Positions 4,873 to 18,842 of a DNA stretch of 42,500 nt are shown in pieces (position 1 is the first letter of the stretch; every line of letters starts with the position of its first letter). Under the pieces are notes generated by a model. The model was not told the origin of the DNA. It saw only the letters and a program-made list of their open reading frames with translations, and made no database searches. Location: assembly GCA_002709695.1 (NCBI GenBank), contig PAQF01000025.1, forward strand, positions 231,418-273,917, given 5' to 3'. Origin of the DNA: Candidatus Poribacteria bacterium (GTDB lineage Bacteria > Poribacteria > WGA-4E > UBA9662). The position numbers were made by a program, and so were the translations under genes.

Positions 4873-6009
4873 TTGAAACCAATAATAAAAAACGTCTTTT
4901 ATTATTCTCTCTTTATAGCTCTTTGCTTGAGTTCTTTGACTTGTAAACGATCTCATAATATGAAACCAATTATTGAGGAATTTATAGTCCCTTCAACAAT
5001 TCAACCAGGAGAAACCGCGATCTTTAAGGTCATTGCGCTTGACCCAGACGGGGATCAATTGACTTACATTTGGATAATAAATGGAGAAACCTCATCTACC
5101 AAGCTATCAACAATGACCTGGGAAACACCTCAAGAACTAGCAGGCCAGCAAATAGATGTGGTGATATCTGTGAGCGATGACCACAACGAACCCGTTGTAA
5201 AAAAAATCCACCTCAAAATTCAAGCCTTTAACATAAAACATCCAAAGAACATGGTACTTATTCCTGCAGGAGAATTTGAAATGGGCACGGACGCAGATCA
5301 AATACCTGAACTTCTGAAGTCAGAAAAACGATATTTCCCTGAGGCAGAAGCAAGTTGGTTCGAAAATGAGACACCACGACACAAAATCCGTCTTGATGCT
5401 TTTTATATGGATATCTATGAAATATCCAATGTCCAATACAAGGAGTTTATTGAAAAAACAGGGTTTCATACTCCTTTATATTGGAACACATCTAACTTTG
5501 TCCCCAATCACCCGGTAGTCGGTGTTAGTTGGCATGATGCTATGGCCTATGCTAAGTGGGCAGGCAAACGACTACCAACGGAAGCCGAATGGGAATACGC
5601 AGCTCGCGGCGGACTAGCTAAAAAAAAATACCCATGGGGTGATGCTGAAGTTAATGGGAAACGAGCAAACTTTGCAGATAAAACTGCCAACCTAAACTGG
5701 TCAAATAAGAACGTTAGCGATGGACATGAATACACTGCTCCCGTTGGAGACTTCCCCCCTAATGGTTATGGATTATATGATATGGCGGGCAATGTTTTTG
5801 AATGGTGCTCTGACTGGTATGATGCCAGCTACTATGCAAAATCGCCAGAGTACAATCCAACGGGACCAATATCGGGAACTATGCGTGTCACACGTGGTAG
5901 TTCCTGGAGTTATCCTCCAAATCGCATGCAAGTTTCTCGTCGTATTGAAAAACACCCAACTAGCATGCTTGACTATGTCGGGTTCCGCTGTGCCAAAACC
6001 GAACCTTAA
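4873..6009 (+). CDS. Probable lipoprotein: Ig/PKD-like domain plus SUMF1-fold domain
   Basis: 378 residues from TTG 4873. No good ribosome site is seen, but this start keeps a complete signal peptide ending at SLTC (C24), an imperfect lipobox. Residues 35-125 look like a beta-sandwich of the PKD/cadherin type (DPDGDQLTYIWIING, then DVVISVSDDHNE). Residues 128-376 are a SUMF1/FGE-sulfatase fold with RLPTEAEWEYAARGG, YPWGDA, GLYDMAGNVFEWCSDWY and RVTRGSSW. The catalytic Cys pair of genuine formylglycine-generating enzymes is absent here too (SYPPNRMQV follows RGSSW). The SUMF1 part is clearly related to the preceding gene, but the linker domains differ: coiled coil there, beta-sandwich here. 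Probably an envelope-displayed binding or enzyme module of unknown target. Confidence 0.85.
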   Translation: MKPIIKNVFYYSLFIALCLSSLTCKRSHNMKPIIEEFIVPSTIQPGETAIFKVIALDPDGDQLTYIWIINGETSSTKLSTMTWETPQELAGQQIDVVISVSDDHNEPVVKKIHLKIQAFNIKHPKNMVLIPAGEFEMGTDADQIPELLKSEKRYFPEAEASWFENETPRHKIRLDAFYMDIYEISNVQYKEFIEKTGFHTPLYWNTSNFVPNHPVVGVSWHDAMAYAKWAGKRLPTEAEWEYAARGGLAKKKYPWGDAEVNGKRANFADKTANLNWSNKNVSDGHEYTAPVGDFPPNGYGLYDMAGNVFEWCSDWYDASYYAKSPEYNPTGPISGTMRVTRGSSWSYPPNRMQVSRRIEKHPTSMLDYVGFRCAKTEP

Positions 6010-6202
6010 GTACCTTGCCATTTCTGCTATTCACCTATTTGCTCGATTTGAACGCAAATTCATTTTAAAAAATCTAGCTCAATCAAATACCAGTTAAAAT
6101 TGCTTATTATCTGTGAATATTGTATGCTAATGTATGATTAGGATTCTAAAGGGTTGTTCACCTATTTTACCAAACAGACCATTTATAAAGGTTAAATTGT
6201 AC

Positions 6203-6742
6203 ATGGCAATTAAGAGTGCCATAAAACAGACACCAATCATCGGACTTCTCTTTGCGATTGTTTGGTTTATGGGTTGTCAAAGAAGTTCAAACAATCTTGG
6301 AGTTAGCAAAAACATGGAAAAAGACAAAACGGACGCAACAGAAAAAGTTGTATTAACAGATGAAGAATGGAAACGTAGATTGACACCTGAACAATATCAT
6401 ATACTGCGCCAGAAAGGCACAGAAAGGGCTTTTACCAATGAAATGAAAAACCTTGGTATAGGTTCATTTGTGTGCGCTGGATGTGAAAATGAGCTTTTCG
6501 TATCTGATACAAAATACGATTCCGGTTGCGGATGGCCTAGTTTCTACGACGCAGTCGATGACGACAATATCACCCAAGAACTTGATTATTCTTTCTCTAT
6601 GAAACGAATAGAAGTATTATGCAGCCGTTGCGATGGACATTTAGGCCATATCTTCAACGACGGTCCCCAACCCACTGGTTTACGTTATTGTATTAATGGT
6701 GGCGCCATTAAATTTCGTAAAGATGACGAAAACAAAAAATAA
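6203..6742 (+). CDS. msrB: Peptide-methionine (R)-S-oxide reductase MsrB, lipoprotein form
   Basis: 179 residues from ATG 6203; AAAGG at 6187-6191 is 11 bases upstream. The longer frame from 6134 would put extra residues before a good signal peptide. The N-terminus is a signal peptide with lipobox FMGC (C25), so this MsrB should act at the envelope, reducing methionine-R-sulfoxide in exported proteins. The SelR/MsrB domain spans about residues 50-174: zinc-binding CAGC (91-94) and CSRC (140-143), GCGWPSF (C109, possible resolving Cys), [10 protein letters not shown], and catalytic Cys in RYCING (C163), where many family members have RYCINS. The thiol donor is unknown. It follows two other lipoprotein genes on the same strand. 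Confidence 0.95.
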
Positions 6743-6880
6743 TCGAGATTCATCTAGCAAAAGCAAGAGGCAATTCCCTCCTGTAACACCGCACATCCAA
6801 GAGATTGGCAAAACTACATCAGCAAAAACACCAAGTTCCTCTCAACAAGAATTCCTTTTAATCTCACGGCCAACAGACAT

Positions 6881-8299
6881 TCAAATTTTCATATATTGAT
6901 AGGATCTTTCGATTAGCCGTCGCTCTTTTTGGCTTTGCCTTACCTGTTGTTCGATTTTCACTGGATCCCAATCAGACAAAAGTTGCTCTTGTAAGCCTTG
7001 AGTTACGGAACTATAATTGGTGTCTTGGGCAAGATCACGAAACTCATTGGGGTCCTGATTTAAGTCATATAGCTGTGGGGATTCCCCTAAGCTATAGTGC
7101 AGTTTGTAACGCCCACGCCGGAACATAGCTGTTGGCCGAGCAACTCCATGCGCACAATACTCTGAGAATGCACAGTCTTTCCATTCGCTTTTAGCTCCTT
7201 GCATCAAAGGTAAAAGACTACTACCATCCAATTTAATATCTCCTTCAGTTTCAGTTATTTCAGCGATAGTAGAAACCAGATCAACCAAAGAAACAACATG
7301 CTCCACACGTTTACCAGCAGGGAGTTGGCCCGGCCATGAGATTTGTAAGGGAACTCTGACGGATGCCTCGTAAAAGCTAGACTTCCTCCACATACCATGT
7401 TCACCATTCATCTCACCATGATCACTACAATAAATAACCAGTGTATTCTGGTACTGATCTGTTTCTTGCAACACCTCTAACAATCGACCAATCTTCTCAT
7501 CTAAATAGGTCACCAAACCGTAATATCCAGCTCTAGCACGAAGAATCAGTTCCTCAGGAAACTCGATACAACCAAACATTTGGCGCATCCTCTGATGTAC
7601 TGGGTGCTGGGTTTCCAAATGATTAGTTGGCATTTCCGGCAGGTCTACCTGATCTAATGGATAAAGATCCCAGAACCGTGATGGCACCACTAAGGGAAAA
7701 TGGGGAGCAATAAAAGACACATTGAGTACCCAAGGTTTGTCACTATCTTTGGCCTCCCACAGATAAGCGACTGCTTTTTCCTCAACCAAGTCATCAACCT
7801 GAATTTCTAATGTAGTCCCAGGACCAGCTTGTTGAAGACCATCCCAAGGTCGTTTAGCAACTGGAGTACCTCTTTCCCAATCTGGAACACCAACAGGAAC
7901 TCCATTTCGGGTCCAAACTTCGGCGTGAAGGTCACGAGCCAATTGTTGATGGAAACCATGAAGTTGATCCAACCCACAAAAGTGCTGCTTTCCCGCCAAA
8001 ACAACATCATACCCTTTAGCACCTAGCAGATGAGCCCAAGTCGGTTGATCTGATGCCAGTGGACTCGCATTATCCCAAACTCCAATATTATGGATATAAC
8101 GACCAGTCATAAATGACATCCTTGAAGGACAACAGAGCGGGGAGTTACAATAAGCATTATCAAACGTCACCCCCTCCTCTGCCAGTCGATTCATATTAGG
8201 AGTTTGGACTAGGGAATTTCCGTAAGTCCCGCTGTACATAGGAGCATGTTCATCCGACATAATCAACAAAATATTGGGTGGATTACTGTGATTTCCCAT
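6881..8299 (-). CDS. Cys-type sulfatase (alkaline phosphatase superfamily)
   Basis: 472 residues. The start ATG 8299 follows a GAGGGG. Family marks are NILLIMSDEH at the N-terminus (D16, metal), the sulfatase signature CCPSR at residues 56-60, where C56 would be converted to formylglycine, followed by MSFMTGR, then CSDHGEMNGEHGMW with the metal Asp and His, and a C-terminal LYDLNQDPNEF typical of choline-sulfatase/arylsulfatase-like members. Length is normal. No signal peptide is seen, so it may act in the cytoplasm on imported sulfate esters, perhaps sulfated sugars. It needs a maturase (FGE or anSME) encoded elsewhere, since the SUMF1 proteins next door lack the catalytic cysteines. Convergent with msrB. 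Confidence 0.92.
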   Translation of the reverse strand: MGNHSNPPNILLIMSDEHAPMYSGTYGNSLVQTPNMNRLAEEGVTFDNAYCNSPLCCPSRMSFMTGRYIHNIGVWDNASPLASDQPTWAHLLGAKGYDVVLAGKQHFCGLDQLHGFHQQLARDLHAEVWTRNGVPVGVPDWERGTPVAKRPWDGLQQAGPGTTLEIQVDDLVEEKAVAYLWEAKDSDKPWVLNVSFIAPHFPLVVPSRFWDLYPLDQVDLPEMPTNHLETQHPVHQRMRQMFGCIEFPEELILRARAGYYGLVTYLDEKIGRLLEVLQETDQYQNTLVIYCSDHGEMNGEHGMWRKSSFYEASVRVPLQISWPGQLPAGKRVEHVVSLVDLVSTIAEITETEGDIKLDGSSLLPLMQGAKSEWKDCAFSEYCAHGVARPTAMFRRGRYKLHYSLGESPQLYDLNQDPNEFRDLAQDTNYSSVTQGLQEQLLSDWDPVKIEQQVRQSQKERRLIERSYQYMKI

Positions 8300-14292: not shown

Positions 14293-14321
14293 TTGACAGA
14301 CATTCCAACGCAAACTAAACT
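14293..14321 (+). promoter_or_regulatory. Promoter of the metal-uptake operon
   Basis: A perfect TTGACA (14293-14298), 17 bases, then TAAACT (14316-14321), 4 of 6 matches to TATAAT. The -10 lies inside the palindrome at 14312-14345, so repressor binding would block RNA polymerase. The start codon at 14377 is about 55 bases downstream. Confidence 0.65.
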
Positions 14322-14345
14322 TTAGGCGCACCTAAATTTTAGTTT
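14312..14345. promoter_or_regulatory. Operator: 15-4-15 palindrome, likely binding site of the MntR/DtxR-like repressor
   Basis: The left arm AAACTAAACTTTAGG (14312-14326) and the right arm CCTAAATTTTAGTTT (14331-14345) are inverted repeats with a single mismatch in 15, around the spacer CGCA. The core TTTAGG-N4-CCTAAA resembles the TTAGG...CCTAA core of DtxR-family operators. It overlaps the promoter and precedes a gene for a DtxR-family protein, so autoregulation of the whole operon by metal is the natural reading. Binding itself is inferred. Confidence 0.75.
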
Positions 14346-14376
14346 ATACCCACCAAACTTTATTATTGGAAACTGA

Positions 14377-15054
14377 ATGAACTCACAAGCTGTCGAAGAT
14401 TACCTAAAAGCCATTTATAAGTTGCAATCTTCCCAATCTATGGTGGTCACATCTGCTTTGGCGGATCATCTCAAGGTTAATCCAGCCTCCGCCACAGGCA
14501 TGATCAAAAAATTGGCTGACTCAAATCTTGTCAGTTATGAGCGATATCAAGGCGTTAAACTGACTCCCCCCGGCGAGAAAATTGCGCTCGAGGTTATACG
14601 GCACCATCGGCTGATAGAGCTTTATCTAGCAGAAGCACTGAACGTACCTTGGGATCAAGTACATGACGAGGCAGAAAAATGGGAACATATCTTGTCAGAA
14701 GACCTGGAAGACCGGATAGACAAAATCCTTGGCTATCCGACAACAGATCCGCACGGCGCACCAATCCCATCTCGAGACGGAAACATTGAGCAAAGAAACA
14801 CAAACTTACTCTCCGAACTAACACAGGGTGATAACGCGATCATCGTCGAAGTCAGCGATGACGATACTGACATGCTTCGTTACCTCGGCAAACTAGAACT
14901 CTACCCACAAACAAATATTCAGATTATATCAATTTCACCTTTTGATCAACTCATCACTATCCGCATCATACCAAATAAGGATAGTAATAACGATTTTGTA
15001 ATCGGCCAAAAAGTAGCTAGTTCAATTTTAGTATCCAAATTGGAGGAAGATTAG
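14377..15054 (+). CDS. mntR: MntR/DtxR-family metal-dependent repressor with FeoA-like C-terminus
   Basis: 225 residues; GGAA lies 5 bases before ATG 14377. Residues 1-65 are a winged helix (VEDYLKAIY, then SALADHLKVNPASATGMIKKL and a wing at YERYQGVKLT). Residues 66-135 form the dimerisation/metal domain, with H77, E100, E103 and H104 in RHHRLIELYL and AEKWEHILSEDLEDR. The residue matching the Cys of iron-sensing DtxR is Glu (E100), as in manganese-sensing MntR; K11 replaces the MntR Glu. Residues 145-222 look like a FeoA/SH3-like domain, as in DtxR and IdeR. It should repress the operon when metal is plentiful, through the palindrome upstream. One base separates its stop from the next start. 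Confidence 0.9.
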   Translation: MNSQAVEDYLKAIYKLQSSQSMVVTSALADHLKVNPASATGMIKKLADSNLVSYERYQGVKLTPPGEKIALEVIRHHRLIELYLAEALNVPWDQVHDEAEKWEHILSEDLEDRIDKILGYPTTDPHGAPIPSRDGNIEQRNTNLLSELTQGDNAIIVEVSDDDTDMLRYLGKLELYPQTNIQIISISPFDQLITIRIIPNKDSNNDFVIGQKVASSILVSKLEED

Positions 15055-15055
15055 C

Positions 15056-16024
15056 ATGAGGAAAATCATCGTCCTTGGACTATTTGGTATAACCGTACTA
15101 TTTAGTTGTACAGATCAGCAAAACGTTTCCCCATCTACCCAGAAACCACCTGAAAAACTAGAAATCCAAGGCCGACCCATACGCATTGTAACAACAATTG
15201 GTATGATCGCCGATTTGGCAAAGAATATCGGAGGTGAGATGGTTGAAGTAACGAGTTTAATGGGGACAGGAGTTGATCCTCATCTCTACAAAGCCAGTGC
15301 AGGTGACGTAACCCTTATCTCTGAGGCTGATCTTATCCTCTATAATGGTTTGCACCTAGAAGCAGGCATGAGCGGAGTTCTAGAACGTTTATCAGACAAA
15401 AAAACCAATCAAGTCTTAGCAGTAACAAAAAATATCGATCGATCAAAGCTAACTGCGCCACCAGAATTCGCAGGTGCTTATGATCCACATGTCTGGTTTG
15501 ATGTCACTCTATGGACAAACGTAGCAGAGACTATTCATAGTGCACTAGTCCTACTAATGCCGTCTGCAGAAGCACATTTTCAGAGTCTAGCTAAAAAGTA
15601 TATACTCCAGCTAGAAAATCTTCACATCTACGTACAAGAAAAAGCTGCACAAATAGAACCATCAAAACGAGTTCTTGTCACTGCACATGATGCTTTTGGT
15701 TACTTTGGTCAGGCCTACGAATTCGAGGTCCACGGCCTCCAAGGAATCAGCACTGCAACCGAAGCAGGAACCGCAGACGTTAGAAAACTCGCACAATTTA
15801 TCGCTGATCGAAAAATCCCAGCTATCTTCGTCGAGTCATCCGTACCCAGACAGAGTATCGAAGCAGTCCAAGCAGCAGTGCGAGCTCGTGGGTTTGAAGT
15901 ACAAATAGGTGGTGAACTGTTTTCAGATGCCATGGGTAACCCAAATACGAAAGAAGGAACTTACATAGGTATGGTACAACACAACATTGATACTATTTCT
16001 GATGGACTAACAAGGGATAATTAA
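15056..16024 (+). CDS. troA: Metal ABC transporter substrate-binding lipoprotein (TroA/ZnuA/MntA type)
   Basis: 322 residues. The signal peptide ends in VLFSC (C18), so it is a lipoprotein that captures metal outside the inner membrane and delivers it to the permease. The four expected metal ligands are visible: H76 in DPHLYKA, H145 in YDPHVWF, H211 in TAHDAFGYF and D291 in ELFSDAMG. His at the third position is the TroA/ZnuA pattern; strict manganese binders such as PsaA have Glu. [12 protein letters not shown] is also typical of TroA-like proteins. The metal could be Mn, Zn or Fe; the MntR-like regulator favours Mn. GGAGG just upstream lies inside the repressor gene, which points to coupled translation. 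Confidence 0.93.
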
Positions 16025-16812
16025 TGTCGATGAACCAAAGCTCATCAGCCATAGAAGTTACAGATTTAACTGTGGCCTACCAAGAAAAACCAGTTTTATG
16101 GGATATAGATATGAATGTACCCCCAGGCGTTTTAATGGCTATTGTAGGTCCTAATGGAGCGGGAAAGACAACACTGATCAAGGCAATTCTCGGACTAGTT
16201 CGTTCTGCCTCCGGTCAGATGCTAATCTATGGGAAACCATATCGCCAACAACGCCGCATCGTCAGTTATGTTCCACAGCGAGGCAGTGTAGACTGGGACT
16301 TTCCAACTACAGTTAAAGATGTTGTTATGATGGGACGCTATGGTGCATTAGGCTGGCTCCGCCGTCCGGGCCAACAAGAAAAAAAATTGGCCTCTGAAGC
16401 AATGGAGAAAGTTGGTATCCTCAACTTAGCAGATAGACAAATCAGCCAACTATCAGGGGGACAACAACAACGTGTTTTTCTAGCACGTGCATTAACTCAG
16501 GACGCTCAAGTCTACCTTATGGATGAGCCATTCCAAGGTGTTGATGCAACAACAGAAAGAGCAATCGTTTTGCTGTTACAACAATTTCGCGAAGAGGGAA
16601 AAACCGTGGTTGTCGTTCACCACGACTTACAAACCGTTTCTGATTATTTCGACTGGGTTACGCTGCTGAACGTACGCCGAATCGCAAGTGGCCCTGTCAA
16701 CACCATTTTTAACGAATCAAACCTCCGCCAGACCTATGGTGGCCGAATCGGCTTTTTGAAAACTGAGCAAGAAATGTCAAACCCTCAAGTACTCCCTGAA
16801 CCAACCTTATAA
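16024..16812 (+). CDS. troB: Metal ABC transporter ATP-binding protein
   Basis: 262 residues; its ATG shares a base with the stop of the binding-protein gene (TAATG), so translation is coupled. Complete ABC ATPase motifs are present: Walker [10 protein letters not shown] (residues 42-50), Q-loop Q85, signature LSGGQ (143-147), Walker B VYLMDEP (D167, E168) and the switch His near 199-200 (VVVHHDL). It powers uptake through the two permeases that follow. Length is normal for the Mn/Zn/Fe chelate subfamily. Confidence 0.96.
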
Positions 16813-16818
16813 AAGTCT

Positions 16819-17736
16819 TTGCCAACTGTGCAAATTTTCCTACACCTATTTTCCGATTACACACTTCGCACTGTCGCCATTGGCACTGCGATTCTAGGCA
16901 TCGTAAGTGGCGCATTAGGAAGTTACGCAGTCTTGCGTAAACAAAGCCTAGTTGGCGATGCTATCTCTCATGCAGCTCTACCAGGCATATGTCTCGCCTT
17001 TCTAATTACTGATAGTAAAACTCCTTTGGTCATGATAGTTGGAGCCTCACTGGCTGGTTGGCTTGGCATACTTGTGGTGACAGCGATTGTCCGTAACACT
17101 CGAATAAAAGAGGATGCAGCACTCGGAATTATTCTAGCTGTCTTTTTCGGGGTCGGCATTGTGTTACTAACGCTGATTCAAAAAATACCGAATGCTAATC
17201 AAGCGGGCTTAGATAAATTTCTATTTGGACAAGCAGCAGCTCTGTTAGAAAGGGACATCAAAACGATGGGGATAATTAGTATTATGGTTATCAGCTTAAC
17301 ATTCCTTTTCTGGAAAGAGTTTAAACTACTCTGCTTCGATCCTACCTTCGGCGCGAGCCTAGGTTTTCCAATGAAGATACTCGATATTCTTCTCATGACA
17401 TTAATTGTAATAGCAATTGTAATTGGTCTTCAAGCAGTCGGTGTTGTACTAATGAGCGCCATGGTGGTTGCACCTGCTTCCGCTGCTCGCCAGTGGACCA
17501 ACCGTTTGGCTATTATGGTCTGTTTAGCTGCTTTGTTCGGAGCAATAGCAGGCGTTACCGGTGCAATAATTAGCAGTACAACAGCCAAAATCCCTACTGG
17601 GCCGATGATTGTAGTATGTGCGAGCGTCATTTTCCTGTTCTCATTAGCTTTTGCGCCTAATCGAGGTTTGATTTGGCAATCGCTACTAAAGAAGACGAAA
17701 TTCAAACCGGAAATCAATGAAGTAGATCCCAAATAG
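16819..17736 (+). CDS. troC: Metal ABC transporter permease 1 (ABC-3 family)
   Basis: 305 residues from TTG 16819, six bases after the ATPase stop. A GTG at 16828 is an alternative start, and neither has a clear ribosome site, so coupling to the upstream gene is likely. The protein is almost entirely hydrophobic with about eight or nine predicted membrane helices. It carries the ABC-3 motif SLVGDAISHAALPG near the N-terminus and GVVLMSAMVVAPASAAR in the second half. It should form the membrane channel together with the next gene product. Confidence 0.93.
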   Translation: MPTVQIFLHLFSDYTLRTVAIGTAILGIVSGALGSYAVLRKQSLVGDAISHAALPGICLAFLITDSKTPLVMIVGASLAGWLGILVVTAIVRNTRIKEDAALGIILAVFFGVGIVLLTLIQKIPNANQAGLDKFLFGQAAALLERDIKTMGIISIMVISLTFLFWKEFKLLCFDPTFGASLGFPMKILDILLMTLIVIAIVIGLQAVGVVLMSAMVVAPASAARQWTNRLAIMVCLAALFGAIAGVTGAIISSTTAKIPTGPMIVVCASVIFLFSLAFAPNRGLIWQSLLKKTKFKPEINEVDPK

Positions 17737-17738
17737 AA

Positions 17739-18842
17739 ATGTCACCCCAAATCGAAATTCTATTGGTCGCTATTATTGTTTCTATCGCTTGCGCCTTACC
17801 AGGAGTTTTTCTGATCTTGCGCCGGATGGCATTAATGAGTGATGCAATTAGTCATTCCGTATTGCTTGGTATTGTGGTAGGCTTTTTCATCATTGGTCAG
17901 GTCGACTCACCCATCCTCCTTATCTTTGCCGCAGGAACCGGTGTTGCAACTGTCAGCCTGGTGGAACTGCTACACCGAACACAATTGGTAAAAGAGGATG
18001 CCGCCATAGGCATTGTATTCCCTGCATTGTTTAGCATCGGTGTCATTCTAGTAACAAGATACGCTAATAACGTCCATTTAGACCAAGATGTTGTCTTGTT
18101 GGGCGAAATTGCGCTCGCTCCATTTGACCGAGTTACGATACTAGGATTAAGCCTTCCACGTGGACTAGTAGTCATGACACTCATCTTAGTAACCAACCTA
18201 TCATGCATTGTCATTTTCTATAAAGAACTGAAGATATCAACTTTTGATGCAGGTTTGGCCACAGCTTTGGGTTTTTCACCCGTTTTTATCCACTATGGCC
18301 TCATGTCTCTAGTTTCAATCACCGCTGTTGGTGCATTCCACGCGGTTGGTGCTGTGCTAGTCGTCGCTCTGATGATCGTCCCCCCAGCCACAGCCTATTT
18401 ACTAACGAATCGGCTATCAATTATGCTAGCAATAAGCAGCTTAGTTGGCACAATCAGTGCCATTATGGGTTACTTTGTGGCGGCCAAGATGGATGCATCG
18501 GTGGCGGGATCAATGGCTAGCATGACAGGAATTTGTTTTCTTTTGACGTTTCTAATAGCACCCAAACGTGGTATTTTAGCCATCATCTACAGAAGGTTTC
18601 GACAAAAATGGGAATTTTCTCAAACGCTGCTATTGATCCACCTAGTAAACCATGAAGGGAAAGAAAACGAAGCTGAAGAATGCAACGTCAATCGAATCAA
18701 CCAACACCTCTCTTGGAATCAAACTTTCACACAAAACGTTATCTTATATGCCGAGAAAAAAGGATCAATACAAATCGAAGAACAGATTCTACGACTAACA
18801 AATCGAGGGCGCGAAATCGCTGATCAAGCCTTTGCCAGATAA
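17739..18842 (+). CDS. troD: Metal ABC transporter permease 2 with winged-helix-like C-terminal tail
   Basis: 367 residues; ATG 17739 is two bases after the preceding stop. Residues 1-285 are a normal ABC-3 permease (RMALMSDAISHSVLLG, VGAVLVVALMIVPPATAY, FLIAPKRG). Family members usually end near here. Residues 286-367 are an extra hydrophilic tail beginning RRFRQKWEF. It contains helix-rich sequence, then IQIEEQILRLTNRGREIAD, which resembles the wing and following helix of DtxR/MarR-type winged helices (LTxxGRxxA). In Chlamydia the YtgCR protein fuses such a permease to a DtxR-like repressor; this tail is shorter and a separate full repressor begins the operon. DNA binding by the tail is only a hypothesis. 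Last gene of the operon. Confidence 0.92.
   Translation: MSPQIEILLVAIIVSIACALPGVFLILRRMALMSDAISHSVLLGIVVGFFIIGQVDSPILLIFAAGTGVATVSLVELLHRTQLVKEDAAIGIVFPALFSIGVILVTRYANNVHLDQDVVLLGEIALAPFDRVTILGLSLPRGLVVMTLILVTNLSCIVIFYKELKISTFDAGLATALGFSPVFIHYGLMSLVSITAVGAFHAVGAVLVVALMIVPPATAYLLTNRLSIMLAISSLVGTISAIMGYFVAAKMDASVAGSMASMTGICFLLTFLIAPKRGILAIIYRRFRQKWEFSQTLLLIHLVNHEGKENEAEECNVNRINQHLSWNQTFTQNVILYAEKKGSIQIEEQILRLTNRGREIADQAFAR

Follow-up and report, generated by a model that had tools for sequence, protein, structure and literature searches.

A long palindrome lies in front of a set of metal-uptake genes in the stretch of Candidatus Poribacteria DNA analyzed here (42,500 nucleotides, referred to as the window), and the question is whether it represents a distinct class of operator or a familiar one with additional sequence around it. 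The initial annotation described a 15-4-15 bp inverted repeat with one mismatch covering the −10 of a TTGACA-17-TAAACT promoter, and this is confirmed by direct reading. The −35 element TTGACA is at positions 14293–14298 and the −10 element TAAACT is at 14316–14321, both on the + strand and separated by a 17-bp spacer. The −35 falls within a block conserved with the congener G001, where the −10, which the operator overlaps, reads TAAAAT. The inverted repeat proper, AAACTAAACTTTAGG-CGCA-CCTAAATTTTAGTTT, begins at 14312 and ends at 14345 and has a single mismatched pair; the start at 14293 given earlier takes in the −35. The core operator TTTAGG-CGCA-CCTAAA is at positions 14321–14336. The repeat is far beyond chance. 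Repeats of its size with a 4-bp gap were absent from 60 windows simulated by a Markov-1 model, and with any gap of 0–8 they had a mean of 0.017 per simulated window (n = 60). When the 194-bp intergenic region was shuffled 20,000 times, no shuffle contained the perfect core.

A DtxR/MntR-like repressor followed by a complete TroA-type ABC transporter had been placed directly downstream, and Pfam domains bear this out, with all genes on the + strand. The repressor gene (positions 14377–15054) encodes a 225 aa DtxR/MntR-type metal-dependent protein with PF01325, PF02742 and PF04023, including a FeoA (SH3-like) domain. It is followed by genes for a 322 aa TroA-type metal-binding lipoprotein (15056–16024, PF01297; E-value = 7e-90 with T. 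pallidum TroA), an ABC transporter ATPase (16024–16812, PF00005; nearest NCBIfam models Mn/Fe ATPases, below cut-off) and two ABC-3 permeases (16819–17736 and 17739–18842, PF00950 in each). This is a complete TroA/ZnuA-type importer set. The binding protein is closest to T. pallidum TroA and aligns with its ligands His/His/His/Asp, a ligand set that does not separate Mn from Zn. As to manganese as the transported metal, the top NCBIfam model is a zinc AztC model, below cut-off. Past its ABC-3 domain the second permease continues for approximately 90 residues at the C-terminus (18570–18842), a stretch with sub-threshold matches only, among them one to a winged-helix protein family. Other Poribacteria (family f3) carry a VIT1-family transporter gene between the repressor and the binding protein (L048, positions 5910–7049), and its product is a possible exporter sharing the operon.

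The repressor displays an N-terminal wHTH and the metal-binding/dimerisation domain of the DtxR/MntR family, with both PF01325 and PF02742 exceeding their cut-offs. Its scores against the NCBIfam MntR equivalogs fall far short of the cut-offs, i.e. 194 bits vs 350 (NF047407) and 81 vs 138 (NF003025), and for this reason it is termed DtxR/MntR-type. The metal ligands D8, H77, E81, H96, E98, E103 and H104 are invariant in 11 relatives, and E100 is either Glu or Asp. D8 and E100 occupy the positions of Met10 and Cys102 in DtxR, which is the manganese-type arrangement. F189, which aligns with SloR F187, is likewise invariant among the 11 relatives. The nearest solved structure is 8pvt, that of DR2539, a protein that responds to both Mn and Fe (PMC3327659) and has the same K11 and H96.

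The initial annotation proposed a search for the palindrome in the whole genome and in related genomes. Such a search finds that the core precedes the repressor orthologues, whereas the long-armed palindrome is found only in the window's own family. The core with one mismatch or fewer is located 5′ of the repressor in nearly all relatives of the order that were examined. With two mismatches or fewer it is present in 58 of 78 wider loci and missing from 20; the reversed control gives 0 of 78. These loci come from a named genome collection, are not all mutually independent, and are labelled Chloroflexi, Calditrichota, Dadabacteria, Rhodothermales, Gemmatimonadota, KSB1, Latescibacterota, Verrucomicrobia, Poribacteria and others. 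The extended exact form, AATTTAGG-N4-CCTAAATT, is found in 23 of 73 genomes with one copy in each (control 0), and a comparison of coordinates places all 23 directly 5′ of the repressor gene. The window's own genome has a relaxed extended core and is outside the 23. Genome scans for the operator used patterns, not a profile. In the 5.2-Mb genome the pattern scan gave a single perfect TTTAGG-N4-CCTAAA, with no additional perfect cores elsewhere, and about 0.6 occurrences are expected at the window's base composition. The extended core with three mismatches is found at three other genomic places vs one control match. The second-best operator profile match within the window is at positions 1064–1095 (about 9/12 core matches; about 0.03 expected by chance). 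It is a candidate only and sits 5′ of a gene whose product, judged by eye, is PhyH-type dioxygenase-like.

A convincing core was not found in family f7 relatives of the same class, where none matches within two mismatches, or in several archaeal and actinobacterial plasmid homologues, thus the operator motif is not universal. The Deinococcus homologues L195, L197 and L198 have TTTAG-type palindromes upstream. Plasmid-borne homologous regulators in Deinococcus, haloarchaea and Arthrobacter (L197, L201, L202 and L206) adjoin a metal transporter gene and one for a protein with a multicopper-oxidase domain. The comparison supports a conserved operator over the promoter of what appears to be an autoregulated DtxR/MntR-type metal-uptake operon. 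The core TTTAGG-N4-CCTAAA does not define an operator class of its own. A distinct class defined by long arms had been suggested; this is not supported, as the same core is present 5′ of orthologues in many phyla without the long arms.

The earlier description of the operator was correct as to the palindrome but left unmentioned a degenerate copy of the core in a 22-bp register. The putative satellite operator, TTTATA-CCCA-CCAAAC, is at positions 14343–14358, i.e. 22 bp downstream of the core, and matches it at 8/12 positions. When offsets around the core are scanned, +22 scores highest in the full locus set. It is also the best in 27 divergent loci, a set thinned to less than 65% protein identity, with 5.96/12 matches vs an average of 3.18 (Wilcoxon p = 4e-5). 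The shoulders +21 and +23 rank next in the 27 loci, and then −22. Two rows of the 27 (L038 and L157) are the same operator; counted once (26 loci), the +22 mean is unchanged. This register emerged from the data, and only afterwards was the match to SloR made. It is a strong statistical signal over many loci, and it is a more interesting lead than the long arms.

G002, a member of the window's family, differs from the window in both operator and repressor. The core of its ABC-operon promoter (L037, about 2479–2519) reads TTTAAC-CGCA-GTTAAA, changed from the TTTAGG type, and in the repressor of this operon (L037, 2541–3215) S37-A38 replaces A37-S38 in the recognition helix. In IdeR, Thr40 contacts the second cytosine of CCTAA (PMC8464063), and by our own alignment Thr40 corresponds to residue 38 here. 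The variant core has a 9/12 copy of itself at +23, for which the chance is 0.004 at +21 to +23 and 0.12 anywhere in 120 bp. The operator change and the helix swap may together be a natural specificity switch, as a single case. Second repressor copies with their own TTTAGG-type or degenerate operator are present in G001 (L036, 928–4302), where the copy precedes a heavy-metal P-type ATPase, and in G002 (L038, 6778–7511), where it looks frameshifted or misassembled near codon 65–71.

Other readings of the palindrome have to be weighed. That it works at the RNA level in the leader, as a hairpin or terminator, with no protein-binding site, is suggested by a strong inverted repeat that is partly downstream of the expected start. 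However the palindrome begins before the predicted transcription start and extends across the −10, its core letters and not its symmetry alone are conserved across phyla, and the core is always tied to the repressor gene; the hairpin reading is very remote. A less extreme but still improbable alternative is that the 15-bp arms are themselves read, e.g. by further dimers or added arm contacts, which would make a distinct operator class. Only the window's own family has the outer 9 bp of each arm, and four operators in this family display clearly longer symmetry, i.e. those of the window, G001, the second repressor copy of G001 and the second copy of G002. The chance of at least 8/9 symmetric outer pairs is about 0.004 per site, and arm symmetry is beyond chance in the window and G001. 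The arms of these two show one symmetric co-change, plus changes that break or mend a pair. Against this, 95 other distinct sites (including L074, which repeats the window's own site) have symmetry above composition at the first three flanking pairs and, modestly, at pair 6, with only small excess farther out. Long arms as a general feature are therefore rejected, since flanking symmetry beyond the first few pairs is near chance outside the window's family. The independent lineages are few, and the −10 lies within the left arm. The window was also searched for a further DtxR-like unit that overlaps the core at a 5-bp offset, as in a 19-bp box, and no second high-scoring unit was found. The presence of the arms in four operators of one family is suggestive only; the outer arms may be a local, lineage-specific elaboration, with at most a putative function.

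The 22-bp register has a rival of its own, namely that the +22 signal is a by-product, either of common descent or of conservation in the leader or ribosome-binding sequence, with no second operator. The satellite is close to the start codon in many loci, the copy is degenerate, and thinning leaves just 26–27 loci. Yet +22 is the top offset both with the start codon within 40 bp and with the start codon beyond, which argues against a ribosome-binding-site artefact, and −22 is also raised. None of 59 permuted palindromes reaches the +22 signal at any offset, although some come near at +22, and the best spacer for the +22 satellite is 4 bp. In G002 the altered core is accompanied by a copy that has the altered letters. 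Seven held-out loci, four from Poribacteria and three from Deinococcus, also rank −22 (p = 0.016) and +22 (p = 0.08) above every other offset. The by-product explanation is unlikely on this evidence, though less so than a reading of the arms. The fuller proposal is that, in several phyla, operators of this broad DtxR/MntR branch are more than single palindromes: a strong site would be flanked at ±22 bp (two helical turns) by degenerate satellites, and binding would be cooperative via FeoA/SH3 as in SloR, with G002 maybe a natural specificity switch that the satellite has followed. This is put forward tentatively, with somewhat less than an even chance of being right.

The preferred reading of the palindrome is that it very probably serves as an autoregulatory operator, through which a DtxR/MntR-type metal-activated repressor would control its own gene and the TroABCD-like importer. 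That it is an ordinary operator of this kind is well supported, and its long arms do not set it apart as a class. The sequences themselves show the anatomy of the site, the conservation of its core, the association of the core with the repressor gene and the 22-bp statistical signal; from them we infer repressor binding, the identity of the metal, exclusion of polymerase and cooperativity, as follows. With ample Mn(II) (or Fe(II)), the dimer would carry metal and bind TTTAGG-N4-CCTAAA, and a second, weaker dimer would probably occupy the degenerate copy 22 bp downstream and help the core dimer. The bound dimers would cover the −10 and the start site and exclude RNA polymerase. Under metal scarcity the repressor would release, and the repressor gene and importer would be expressed together. 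The operator is now fixed for a branch of metal-sensing repressors that is widespread and for the most part uncultivated, thus regulons should be predictable in that branch.

Among known systems, the DtxR/IdeR repressors are homologous to the window's repressor. In IdeR, a single dimer occupies a half site that contains two CCTAA motifs (PMC8464063). The actinobacterial DtxR/IdeR box, TTAGGTTAGCCTAACCTAA, shares TTAGG/CCTAA half-sites at 4-bp spacing with the window, which is the one-dimer unit (PMC8464063, PMC7762939), and TTAGG-N4-CCTAA is present at positions 14322–14335. The initial annotation had already likened the core to DtxR-family sites; the core equals the half of the box that one dimer reads. 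However the 19-bp box has two overlapping units and accommodates two dimers, whereas the window has a single unit whose A/T flanks are longer, and its degenerate copy is 22 bp away. The nearest solved relative, DR2539 of Deinococcus, shares K11 and the ancillary His with the window's repressor and, with either Mn or Fe, recognizes an inverted repeat (PMC3327659). The Deinococcus homologues L195, L197 and L198 are linked to Nramp genes, whereas the window's repressor is linked to an ABC importer.

The tro operon of Treponema, like that of the window, combines a repressor and an ABC importer, and TroA of T. pallidum is the closest to the window's binding protein. The T. pallidum TroR operator also overlaps the promoter (PMC2628430). 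However troABCDR lists the TroR gene last, whereas the window has the repressor gene first, and the TroR operator letters differ (oligonucleotide with TTTGATGCATCAAAA). SloR of Streptococcus mutans is a FeoA-domain relative of DtxR, as is the window's repressor. Its sites are 18 bp (6-6-6) with 4 bp between them, which gives a 22-bp repeat with cooperative binding over the promoter, and F187 of the FeoA domain is implicated in this cooperativity (PMC12096823). The half-sites differ, i.e. AATTAA with a 6-bp spacer in SloR and TTTAGG with a 4-bp spacer and weak putative satellites in the window. The window's 8/12 copy, if it acts as a satellite, would be in the 22-bp register of the SloR tandem sites. 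If the 22-bp satellites are bound, the SloR-like cooperative arrangement would be a general feature and not a streptococcal one alone.
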